NCBI RefSeq assembly: GCF_964275005.1
Contig: NC_092686.1
Location: 43,708,333 to 43,772,332, forward strand
Source of the DNA: Diadema setosum
Lineage: Eukaryota; Echinodermata; Echinoidea; Diadematoida; Diadematidae
Direction: 5' to 3'
DNA: 64,000 nucleotides
In this document: piece by piece, positions 38,601-63,185 of the stretch
How positions within the stretch are numbered: the stretch's first letter is position 1
Layout of the letters: the number at the start of each line of letters is the position of its first letter
Made by a program: the position numbers and the translations under genes
Notes under the pieces: model-generated
What the model saw: only the letters and a program-made list of their open reading frames with translations
The model's database searches: none
Told to the model about the DNA's origin: nothing

Positions 38601-41600
38601 CTCCAGTATGATGATGTGTGCAAGATTGACTTTGGCACGCACATCAACGGTGAGCTCCTTGGCTTGGTAGCTATCATCCTTTTATATGCATGGACTTTCC
38701 AGTGTATTACAGTGTGAAGATATCTGCCCTTATTGGGTTTGCAAATGTTGGTATTAATGCAGCCAAGCTTTGACTATATTGCAGGGGTCTAGGGCAATTA
38801 CCCCCTGGGCAATTACCCCAGACCCTTCCCCTGACCCTAACCCTAATCTTAATCCTGAACCTTATCCTAACCCTAATTCTAAACTAAAAACTCTAATGCT
38901 AAACCTAACTCTAACCCTAATCTTTACTCTAACCTTATCACTAACTAGTATTTAGCAGGGGGGGGGGGGGGGGTAATTGCCCTGATATGATACTGCAGCA
39001 AGGTAAATAGACATCCATGACAACTAACATCTGCAAGTATTGCAGTACAATTCTTTGCCGTTTGAGCATAATGGTGAGACTCTCCGATTTCAGATTTTGA
39101 GAAATATATAAAAATGCCGATTTACATACATTCTAAACTGAAATCTGCTTTCTCATCTTATTTGTGAATAAAGAAAGTGAAGAATGTGTTTTGATTTGCA
39201 TGCTCTTTCAAGTAAGTTTGCTCTGTTTTAGATTTTACTGTAACACGAAGTGAAAATGTGTTTAATTTCTCTTTCTTTTAGGTCGAATCATTGATTGTGC
39301 ATTCACAGTGACGTTCAATCCTAGATATGATCAACTTCTAGCAGCAGTGAAAGATGCCACAAATACTGGAATAAGGGTAAGACATTGAAGTCTTGTGTAA
39401 TGTGTGACCTGTAGACAATTTTAAATCTTCTTTTGTCATATGTGCCCTATGTGTACACCAAGGGACTTTTTCATTATTAATCTTTTATGTGCTCAGGCAG
39501 TGAGACTTGTGTTCTTTTTCGTCAGAATTCATAAATTCCTCCAAACTTGACCCAATCATAAGTTAGGCAACCTACTTGGGAGCAGTCATGTGCCTTAGTC
39601 CAACAAGAAGGTCATGGTGACACAGTGGGGATTAAGGAGATTAGTTGATCTCTATTTAGTGGCAGTTAGTTTCCAGACATCTGAGCCAAGCAGTGAAGAA
39701 AGCATTGCAACAAATCACAGTAATGTTATGAGTCATAATGATGCTGTGTTAAATGCCTGTGTCTTTTTTGACATTACCAAGAATAGACAACAGCCGAACC
39801 ACAGTACCTTATTAAGATTACATGATTGTGTTCAAGGACTAAAGAGCTCCTTAGGTCTGGCACTGGATTTTCTTTTTATGCCTCCGCCAACGAAGTGGCC
39901 GGAGGCATTATGTTTTCGGGTCGTCCGTCCGTCCGTACGTCCGTACGTCTGTACGTCCGTACGTCCGTACGTCTGTACGTCCGTACGTCCGTCCGTCCCG
40001 TTTTGTTTTTGTCGATATCTCAAGAACCGTGTGGTGGTTTTGCATCAAACTTGGTATGAGGGTATATCCTTGGGAGATGATACTTTATGTGGATTTTAGG
40101 GTCACAGGGTCAAAGGTCAAAGGTCACAGGTTATTTTGTGAAAAAAAATTGAAATTTCATGTTTTTCTCCATATATCGCAAATGGTTCAAGGTATCTTCA
40201 TGGAACTTAGTTTATATGCTTGTACCGATGGGCAGTGATTATCTAGGGAAGTTGGGGGGTCATGGGTCAAAGGTCATGGGTCAAAGGTCAAGGTCAACTC
40301 CTCAAAATATAACTACTTTCCTTATATTTATGCAGTGCCTGAAGGATTTTTTAAAACTTGATGTATGCATGTATAACCCAATATATATTCTTTGGGAAGT
40401 TTCTTGCCAAAAGGTCAAAGGTCAAGTGAAAGTGCTAAATTGCACTTTTTCTTCCATATCTCAAAAATAACTCAAGGTATTGTCATGAAACTTACATATT
40501 TATGCATGTTCTACCTAACAGTAATTCTCTTTGGAACTGTGGGGTCAAAGGTCAAAGGCCAGGTTTCGATGATACTATTTTACCATTTGATACTGAAATT
40601 ATACTTTTTCTCAATACCTTGAAATTTACGCAATGCATAAACTTGTAAAAGGGTCAAAAGTCAAGTGAAAATCATCAGTTCCCCCAAATACCTGCACTCT
40701 GACGTTTTAATCATTCATCCAATTGAACCTAGTTCTAGGAAAGTGAACATTCAGCACATTTGTGGCAAACCTGTCATTTTGATATTTTGCCAATTGTGTG
40801 AAACTGTCATCACACATTGTCAAGACATTGTACTATAGACCTGTTAGGAGAACCATGTATTATGGCGGAGGCATACACCAGTCGCCGTAGCGACATTTCT
40901 AGTTCTTGATATAGTATAAACCAGAGTGGCATCATGTCTTGTACTGTGTATTGACCGTAGTAATCTCTGCTAACTCAATGTGCTTCAAGAAAGAGTCAAA
41001 GACTCTTGATATTTACTTTTTATACACCCAACAAAATTCTTCAGGTACATGTTACTTATCTCAGAACAGTTCACATTTTTGCCCTTGGGAGTCTGTATAC
41101 ATGAACTATCATAGCACAATATGCTGTCTCAAGTTTATGCCTGTAATGTATACCGGTATTTGGAGTATGGTGGAATATTTTATCTAATGTTGACAGTTTG
41201 ATCAAGATCTCTTTGATCGTTGATTCACTGACATTGATGATAAATTAGGGTTACTGGGTATTCCACTTTCCCGAGTGCAGAATGAACAGGATGGTATTGC
41301 ACAACCACAAATAGCCAGCCTTCCTGTTTTGTTGCTTGGCTCTGTCACCATGTGGTATAATAATTTCCTGTACCAGAGGTCTCACAGGAGATGCCTTTCA
41401 TTTGAACTCTTGAAAAAGAGTGGGAACTTTTCTTATGATACTTCTATCACTCAGAACAGGATACATTGGCACAACCTAAAGACTTTATAGCTTCAGAGTA
41501 CACTGACCAGTTTCTTTCTCATTTCCAAAGGTTTCCTTGTGTGAGTGATACTGTATTAATGAAAGCTTGAAAGCATGTGATGATACAATGCTCACACTCG

Positions 41601-61123: not shown

Positions 61124-63185
61124 CACTCGGCAAAAAAAAAAAAAAAAAAAAAGAAGTAAACTTTTTTTTTTCAAATTCATATTTCTCATAGAAGGTTTTG
61201 ATAAAGATCAGTGTATTTATATACCATATTAAAGCTAATTTAATTGGCTATCACAGAGGTAGGTTAATACAAAGGGACATTTTATGCACGAGTGAACACG
61301 TTTTTATCCTCCAAGGCACAAAAGTAAAAATTGCAGAAAATTACATTTGTTATTCATTTACAAATGCGCTTGAAGATAGCAATAATCACCAAAGACCAAT
61401 TTAGCACAACCAGAGACATGCATGGAATAGCAAAAATGAAGTCTTGTTCCCTTGAATCTCTTTATATCCTCAAATGCAAAGAGGGAAGCTAATGTGGGAA
61501 AATAAGAATTTTCTGTCAACTCAACCTTTAAATGACATAATGACTAAGCAGCAAAGCTGATAAATTGGGCATAATTGTCCCCGCCGAACGAGTTCGAGCA
61601 GGGGACTATGAAACGGGCTCCGTACGTGTGTGTGTCCGTGTGTCCGTGTGTCCGTGTGTCCGTCTGTCCGTCTGTCCGTGCGTCCGTGTGTGATCAAAAT
61701 GTTCAAAATGCTACTCCTTCGCCATTTCTAACCCGATTTTGATTCTGTTTGCTTTATATGATAGCACTACATGGGAGCTTTGAAACTTCTATACAGAATT
61801 TCAGTTGTGACCTTTGACCTTGACCTTTGACCTATATTGTACATTTTGCTTCAAAATGCTACTCCTTCGCCACTGATTTCTAACCCGATTTTGATTCCGT
61901 TTGCTTTATATGATGGCACTAGGTGAGGGCTTCAAAACTTCTACACAGAATTTTGACCTTTGACTTCTTTGACCTTTGACCTTGATTTTTGACCTATATT
62001 GCACATTGCCTACAAAATGCTACTCCTTCGCCATTTCTAACCCGATTTTGATTCCGTTTGCTTTATGTGATGACGCTAGGTGAGGGCTTCAAAACTTCTA
62101 CACAGAATTTTGACCTTTGACTTCTTTGACTTTTGACCTTGATTTTTGACCTATATTGTACATTTTGCTACAAAATGCTACTCCTTCGCCATTTGTAACC
62201 CAATTTCAATTCCGTTTGCTTTAAGTGATGGCACTAGGTGAGGGCTTCAAAACTTCTACACAGAATTTTGACCTTTGACTTCTTTGACCTTGATTTTTGA
62301 CCTGTATTGTACATTTTGCTACCAAATGCTACTCCTTCGCCATTTCTAACCCGATTTCGATTGCGTTTCCTTTATGTGATGGCACTAGATGAGGGCTTCA
62401 AAACTGCTACACAGAATTTTGACCTTTGACTTCTTTGACCTTTGACCTTGATTTTTTTACCTATATTGTACATTGGCTACAAAATGCTACTCCTTCGCTA
62501 TTTCTAACCCGATTTCGATTCCGTTTGCTTTATGTAATGGCACTAGGTGAGGGCTTCAAATCTTCTACATAGAATTTTGACCTTTGACTTCTTTGACCTT
62601 TGACCTTGATCTTTTTACCTATATTGTACATTTTGCTACTAAATGCTACTTCCGGCGGGGACATATATTACGCACCGTGTGATTTCTACGTTTCCTTGTT
62701 TCTTTATTTCATTCTTTTAATTTAGGAATTGAACAATTCAAATTCATTTCAAATTTCAACCATTTTTGTTGATGTGGATTCTTCTCTATTGTCATTTGAA
62801 TTCGGATTTGACAGAAGATTCTTCATTTTTTTGCATTATTCTTAGCCTGTGGATACAAAGAAATTGTAGAGATCATTAGTTGTTTTTTTTTTTTCAAATT
62901 AATTTGTTTTCGTATTGTGTTACATTTGTCTTTTGTTCTCATTGTTATTATGCAAGAGCACTTCTGCACGATTGACAACTTGTTTACTTTTGCAATTTTT
63001 ACTTTTGTGCCCTGGAAGAGAAAAATGAATGGGTTCACTCATACCTGATGTTTCCCTTTTTATTCACCTACCAGGTTGATAGCCAATTAAATTATTAACA
63101 TGGTATATAAAACATTAATATTTAGCAGAATATTCTATGATGAATATTAACTTGAAAAAACGTTTGCTTTCTTTTTTGCTGAATG
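61124..63185. mobile_element. Tc1/mariner-like fold-back element (interrupted)
   Basis: Flanked by TA. The left arm (61124-61560) starts CACTCGGCAAAAAA and the right arm (about 62700-63185) is its diverged inverted copy, ending TTTTTTGCTGAATG. Shared internal blocks include TTTAATTGGCTATCA and GGCACAAAAGTAAAAATTGC. The arms, about 450 bp each, are nearly the whole element. A family 2 Helitron-like element sits between them. Confidence 0.75.
61574..62689 (+). mobile_element. Helitron-like element, family 2 copy 2
   Basis: About 1.1 kb: start ATTGTCCCCGCCGAACGAG, (GTCCGTGT)n tract, about six modules of 130-165 bp each with a TGACCTTTGACC-type site, then GGCGGGGACATA, a 3' hairpin (decayed relative to copy 1) and TTTCTAC. 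It is inserted at the centre of the fold-back element 61124-63185. Confidence 0.75.

Follow-up and report, generated by a model that had tools for sequence, protein, structure and literature searches.

A composite Helentron-type repeat that keeps a degenerate internal terminator in a METAP2 intron of Diadema setosum

The closest described relatives of the repeats treated here are the Helentron-associated interspersed elements (HINEs), for which a common order of parts has been reported: a 5' subterminal inverted repeat (subTIR), a complementary inverted repeat, a GTCC or GTCY microsatellite, a body with tandem repeats, a 3' subTIR and a palindrome (PMC4067079, PMC7492417). The structural description in PMC4067079 gives the subTIR as about 12-15 bp long and places its 3' copy 38-60 from the end. 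We analyzed repeats of this kind in a 64,000-nucleotide stretch of the Diadema setosum genome (NC_092686.1, positions 43,708,333 to 43,772,332, forward strand; hereafter the window), which carries the gene for methionine aminopeptidase 2 (METAP2). A first-pass annotation had read six places in this window as six insertions of three repeat families. Three of these places, the family 1 copies at 41823 and 46696 and the family 3 copy at 45976, belong together in a single composite mobile unit (41824-47701). Very probably, all the repeats are rolling-circle elements of the HINE type, and the composite probably arose by bypass of a terminator and spread as one unit.

With HINE/DINE-1 (Thomas et al. 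2014, PMC4067079), the repeats share the subTIRs, the 3' palindrome, the microsatellite and the tandem repeats; the account given there also describes T-T insertion without target duplication, with element-borne Ts varying in number. They differ from HINE/DINE-1 in their defined CTAG^T and CTTG^T termini (^ marks the junction), as far as the descriptions were compared. Composite elements with a bypassed internal terminator, as probably found here, follow a route that PMC4067079 names as likely. Cg_HINE of Crassostrea gigas, as described in PMC7492417, likewise has a 5' subTIR, an inverted repeat, a GTCY/GTCC microsatellite, tandem repeats, a 3' subTIR, a palindrome and T-rich targets; it consists of separate elements, is likened here by description, and could not be related to an autonomous partner there either. 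Helitron2/FoHeli of Fusarium oxysporum resembles the present elements in its asymmetric terminal inverted repeats and, in FoHeli1 and 2, in hairpins at both ends. According to the same description, however, FoHeli has other ends and another target context, FoHeli1 and 2 ending in ATTTT (PMC5148889). A further difference is that the candidate proteins reported below contain OTU parts, one copy also having an endonuclease-like end. Helraiser and the bat Helitrons share a CTAG-3' end adjoining T, CTTG-3' as an alternative end and a 3' hairpin terminator, and read-through by Helraiser rises without the hairpin. In contrast to our elements, these are described as canonical Helitrons with a 5' TC and A-T insertion (PMC4778049).

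Boundaries and contents of the composite unit

Copies and proteins were searched in the 912.7-Mb genome (102 contigs, the window lying on contig C2). A first look gave 3171 candidates for family 1, 2553 for family 2 and 4182 for family 3; the best 40 places per family query, the window's own included, were scored, and all three families proved to be multicopy. The composite, which like the other family 1, 2 and 3 copies of the window lies on the forward strand, extends from the 5' end of one family 1 copy to the 3' end of another. The first copy, F1b (41824-43600), provides the 5' end of the unit, its own 3' end being internal. It is followed by captured DNA (43601-46697), which in the window is without a segment of ~800 bp between 46685 and 46687, and by the second copy, F1c (46698-47701), whose 5' end is internal and whose 3' end closes the unit.

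The composite was found with both ends at five sites (the window and four others) with different flanks and on five different contigs; further composite loci are known from partial reads only. All five copies start T^TTTTATGCC and end CTAG^T. In two of them, L072 and L073, the homology spans the unit from the 5' end of F1b to the 3' end of F1c and stops there. Between these two, similarity is 95.8% in a block of 4.1 kb and 97.1% in one of 1.8 kb, the blocks reaching across the unit, and the window copy matches both in blocks of 86-99% over the whole span. The 5' junctions of the window, L072 and L073 read TTTTTTTATGCC, TTTTTTATGCC and TTTTTATGCC, with different flanks, and at the 3' junctions CTAG is followed by TTTTTATG, TCTTGATT and TTTTCTCT, respectively. 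The other two copies, on contigs C5 and C7, both read ...CTTTTT|ATGCC at the 5' end, and CTAG|TTCTCC and CTAG|TTGTAG, respectively, at the 3' end.

At the point where F1b would end by itself, all three copies that were read through (window, L072 and L073) carry the identical internal terminator TGGTGGAGGTATCAGTCGCCATAGTGACATTTCTAG (43565-43600), including CTAGTT. This terminator is degenerate, with changes in subTIR and stem relative to the form seen in 38 family 1 copies; its hairpin reads GTCGC-CATA-GTGAC as compared to the intact GTCGC-CGTA-GCGAC. A degenerate terminator that is identical in three copies suggests that the 3' end was bypassed. Over ~1.5 kb of the captured segment, the same three copies agree at 98.4-98.6%, gaps uncounted. 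Two insertions in F1b (~42532-42745 and ~42828-43064) and a third at 43991-44406 are absent at those places from L072 and L073, and therefore are probably later arrivals. The third is a MITE-like repeat (miniature inverted-repeat transposable element) with a CAGTTGAACCTCTATTATCCGG end, which in L072 occurs at another place and in the other orientation (7073-7498); in both copies it is probably a later insertion. In L073, a fourth hairpin-type 5' end (TATCCCCCGAACATAGTTCGGAGGATACTATGG) lies ahead of F1c, within 6901-7780, in the segment that the window copy lacks. The captured DNA of the window also holds two 113-bp tandem copies, 99% alike (44969-45197), beside a GGCC-rich stretch (44727-44882).

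The captured DNA contains the decayed family 3 element (45976-46483; exact termini not fixed). For this family, the 30 best of the 40 scored places, one of them the window, were read with 1.5-kb flanks. At all 29 further loci, family 3 has matches to window DNA to its left and right. An extra 0.7-0.9 kb displaces one flank match in L054 and L062, and L060, L065 and L066 have a partial match on the left. The ~800-bp segment absent from the window matches in all 29 as well, and the head of F1c was matched, within the stretch read, in 24 of them. Since the 30 best loci thus all represent the composite, the independent family 3 termini rest on two copies. Older copies outside the composite are L033, L017 and L036, of which L033 and L017 read TTTTCTAG|TT, too few (n = 2) to fix the terminus.

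Because the places at 41823, 45976 and 46696 belong to one unit, the window records four insertion events rather than six, three of them in METAP2 introns. The family 1 copy F1a and the family 2 copies F2a and F2b, described below, stand as separate insertions. What the first-pass annotation had named as a refutation, shared ends internal to a larger element, thus holds for the family 3 copy of the window, the larger element itself being bounded by family 1 ends.

Termini, shared anatomy and class of the families

The independent family 1 copy F1a (39874-40902, 1029 bp) is inserted in a METAP2 intron as T^TTTTATGCC...CTAG^TT. Its 5' subTIR and hairpin (ATGCCTCCGCC...GGCCGGAGGCAT) occupy 39878-39908, and a CGTCCGTA microsatellite, the length of which varies among copies otherwise ~99% alike, lies at 39922-39998. 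The 3' subTIR TGGCGGAGGCAT, the hairpin GTCGC-CGTA-GCGAC and the terminus ATTTCTAG follow at 40863-40902. All 40 scored family 1 places were read (L001 and L003-L041; L002 was dropped as the same place as L009), and both ends were obtained for 38 copies, L019 and L031 being without the 5' motif in the script. Upstream of ATGCC, T occurs in 38/38 copies at position -5, in 36/38 at -4, in 33/38 at -3, and in 38/38 at both -2 and -1. Position -6 is T in 12/38, like the flank, and thus unbiased. CTAG is followed by two Ts in all 38 copies and by a third in 27. The T context is asymmetric, with five consecutive Ts on the 5' side as against two fixed Ts on the 3' side, and the element is read as T^TTTTATGCC...CTAG^T(T). 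That the three family 1 pieces of the window end in CTAG followed by T, as first annotated, was seen in each of them and extends to the whole sample.

The 12-nt 5' motif recurs perfectly inverted within the last 60 nt of 37 of the 38 copies, and the 3' hairpin and the arms of the 5' hairpin are intact in every one. The 3' subTIR lies 29-40 nt from the 3' end. Canonical Helitrons end in CTRR with a hairpin ~11 nt upstream; family 1 ends in CTAG with its hairpin 8 nt upstream, whereas the CTTG of family 2 does not conform to CTRR. Outside the microsatellite, 37 copies of less than 1.2 kb, a biased sample because they were picked as best matches, diverge by 0.5% from the majority base and by 0.9% in the pairwise mean. 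This divergence of ~1% among best-match copies indicates recent activity of family 1. One paralogous empty site was found: the L028 element sits in a repeat that occurs without the element at L041 (79% alike), where the flanks rejoin without duplication if three to four Ts count as element.

Family 2 is represented by F2a (48785-52155), which ends 69 bp short of an exon and is split by a later insertion, and by F2b (61573-62698), with 158-bp tandem repeats in its body; both end CCTTG^T. The scored places were 94-97% alike, apart from the window's own at 100%. Termini were compared in ten copies read at both ends plus the two of the window (n = 12). TTTCTAC, which had been taken up to its TTTCTA as the terminus, is followed by TTTTCCTTG in 11 copies and by GTTTCCTTG in F2b. 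The end lies nine nt past TTTCTAC, at CCTTG^T, in 12/12. Beyond it comes T in 12/12, a second T in 10/12 and then unrelated flank. On the 5' side, T stands at -3 from TTGTCCCC in 12/12 and at -4 in 4/12. From the invariant T at -3 and the invariant CCTTG followed by T, the ends of family 2 are likely T^NNTTGTCCCC and CCTTG^T. The insertion that splits F2a (49500-51919) has inverted ends CAGTTAAACTCGC...GCGAGTTAAACTG, TA on each side and a 71-bp tandem array (50046-51280); it looks like a TA-duplicating transposon with terminal inverted repeats (TIRs).

The common design attributed to the six places is borne out by their parts: all have a microsatellite of the GTCC, GTTT or GTGTGTCC type, 5' and 3' hairpins (the former weak in family 3, the latter short) and, on the 3' side, the 5' motif in inverted form. 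With a subTIR of 11 nt, F2b falls short of the published 12-15 bp, as does the family 3 copy with 9 nt. A 3' hairpin is present in the copies of families 2 and 3, imperfect in F2b, and is spaced 16 nt from the CTTG end as compared to 8 nt from the CTAG end. Of the six places, a strict exact-match scan for the order of parts picked up just the one at 39877, with one other match on the plus strand and two on the minus strand; 30 shuffles, one strand each, gave a single match in total. Such a scan with exact hairpins was rejected as a detector for being too strict, and the proof therefore comes from the multicopy data and not from the pattern alone. The description of the families as unrelated in sequence was too strong. 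Families 1 and 3 have TTATGTTTTCG after the 5' hairpin in common (11/11; weak on its own), and a GGTCAAAGGTCA-type stretch of family 1 recurs in family 2 as its reverse complement (31 bp, 93.5%). Repeats of the GGTCAAAGGTCA type are numerous in family 1 bodies and, as reverse complement, in family 2 bodies (window 40109-43260 and 49005-62650); such half-sites may resemble nuclear-receptor sites.

These data support the assignment of the repeats to the non-autonomous Helentron-type rolling-circle elements, and they are further members of the already described HINE class. The order of parts agrees, with a perfect 12-nt subTIR in 37/38 and a 3' palindrome in 38/38 family 1 copies. Insertion between Ts was seen in families 1 and 2, with a duplication of at most 1-2 T at the one diverged empty site. 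The 5' TC and A-T insertion of canonical Helitrons were not found, the missing TC having been pointed out before; the elements start T^TTTTATGCC or T^NNTTGTCC, with T on both sides. Coding capacity appears to be lacking, to go by the lengths of the open stretches and without a family search of these frames. In the L072 and L073 composites, for which frames of at least 85 aa were listed and judged by eye, no open stretch exceeds 127 aa. The window composite and family 2 do not overlap an open stretch of at least 130 aa. F1a overlaps one of 166 aa that enters from the flank; among the stretches that pass through family 1 copies, the longest has 197 aa and likewise includes flank.

The exon at 47908-48105 belongs to METAP2. 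Further METAP2 exons (38562-38660, 39272-39376, 52225-52341, 53473-53607 and 54387-54518) were located with pieces of human METAP2 as queries. F1a and the composite share one intron and F2a lies in the next. Five of the six reported pieces are thus placed between METAP2 exons, as most had been annotated to be in introns of one gene, while F2b follows downstream of the last coding exon located. Another METAP2 intron holds a 199-bp inverted repeat (52706-53377; 85% complementary, 274 nt apart).

Candidate helper proteins

The Rep domain PF14214 has 49 matches in the genome, of which 21 lie in stop-free frames of 3276-3517 aa. Matches to PIF1 helicase occur 2.1 kb downstream of Rep in frames of the same lengths, and two OTU matches lie upstream of Rep in each of the 21 frames. 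We regard these 21 open OTU-OTU-Rep-helicase frames as candidate Helentron-type proteins. In the C1 copy, a 3401-aa frame read in part (piece L112), 650 nt starting 3.7 kb after the Rep start were read in register with the Rep match to the stop codon. They gave a partial match to Exo_endo_phos (PF03372; E 4e-4, below the curated cut-off), while a PDB search with this endonuclease-like piece returned no match. OTU, Rep, helicase and endonuclease are named as parts of the Helentron set in PMC4067079. A genome-wide search with PF14529 found no frame of 3.3-3.5 thousand aa among the best 150 of 1863 candidates scored, and this probe was dropped as swamped by putative retrotransposon endonucleases.

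The main genomic matches to the 3' stretch of C1 show 76-94% similarity, and most of them extend as far as the stretch itself; the element therefore runs on. Paired 30-40 nt probes from two copies (C1, C22) match at +3.6 kb from Rep and not at +4.4, +5.2, +6.3, +7 or +8 kb. The point at +4.4 kb was wrongly taken as outside the element, which continues there in most copies listed; the C22 match ends there. The predicted folding of 276 nt around and after the stop codon was unremarkable (z 0.73). Behind this stop codon, a portion of the endonuclease-like coding end occurs again (C1:14834160-14834511), as in some other copies. That the 21 frames have stayed open despite a DNA difference of up to 23% from C1 in the 3' stretch suggests that selection acts on the protein.

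Origin of the composite

The termini of families 1 and 2, their T context, the multiple copies, the limits of the unit at five sites and the internal terminator common to its copies are direct observations, whereas the enzyme, the circular form and the bypass are inferred as follows. A Helentron Rep-helicase would nick the 5' end and unwind the element. The 3' hairpin would then cause the enzyme to stop and cut at CTAG in family 1, and probably family 3, or at CTTG in family 2. The product, single-stranded or circular, would be joined between two Ts. In one family 1 element, the weakened terminator would have been passed over, so that copying continued to the 3' end of a neighboring family 1 element. 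The DNA between the two, including an old family 3 element, would have been captured, and the whole would have spread as one unit. In our analysis, the composite is best explained by copying that ran through a weakened terminator as far as the following family 1 end. This reading draws on the 3' hairpin acting as a terminator (PMC4778049) and on the proposal of end bypass or composite transposition in HINEs (PMC4067079).

The main rival is that complete elements were nested in a larger Helitron with family 1 ends, with no original bypass. The family 3 element does look like a nested insertion, and in L073 the stretch ahead of F1c has its own hairpin-type 5' end. Nesting, however, does not readily account for a complete internal terminator with CTAGTT in three copies read through, nor for a far terminus that is F1c's own. 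A unit with these outer ends would, moreover, still have to pass the inner terminator at each transposition, and we consider this origin unlikely. Spread of the block by segmental duplication or gene conversion would suit a multicopy block of ~6 kb without long reading frames. It is, however, very improbable, as at five sites on five contigs the homology stops at T/ATGCC and CTAG/T between different flanks. Slightly less probable still is that the repeats are MITEs of a cut-and-paste TIR transposon with a short T-rich target duplication. Both ends are indeed T-rich, 1-2 T may have been duplicated, and the subTIRs could pass for imperfect TIRs. Against this stand the inverted motif, which lies 29-40 nt inside the 3' end instead of being terminal, the asymmetric T context with its unbiased position -6, and a Helitron-type 3' end, in which the hairpin precedes CTAG by 8 nt or CTTG by 16 nt.

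Several observations weigh against terminator bypass in HINE-type elements, the reading we prefer. At the lone empty site, which shows just 79% similarity and falls within a run of Ts, 1-2 T may have been duplicated; family 2 ends in CTTG and not CTAG; and the family 3 termini rest on two old copies. The C13 copy, one of three extra copies probed, has a 5' end piece whose 5' flank was not captured, and shows no end at the predicted 3' place. A Rep/helicase element with the ends of these families had been envisaged; the 21 open frames agree with this, but the 274 nt from one Helentron stop codon onward carry none of the terminal motifs of families 1-3. The candidate Helentron element extends past the stretch read, and no autonomous element with these ends was found. 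Taken together, the first-pass annotation is confirmed in part as an observation and supported in part as an interpretation, its Helentron/HINE assignment being upheld.

The unit represents a HINE composite, traced at the genome level, that keeps the terminator it probably skipped, and it would exemplify the presumed way in which HINEs carry host DNA. There is a caution for annotation as well: an element scored as a HINE from its own ends may in fact travel as the passenger of a second one. The candidate intact Helentron proteins in the same genome make the link between HINEs and their helper testable. Tentatively, the composite may even be no one-off: a partly working terminator could sit inside a successful 6-kb family and be skipped at each transposition, and many HINE 'families' may be captured passengers. 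If so, the ratio of F1b-only to composite copies in the genome would be a natural gauge of Helentron terminator strength.

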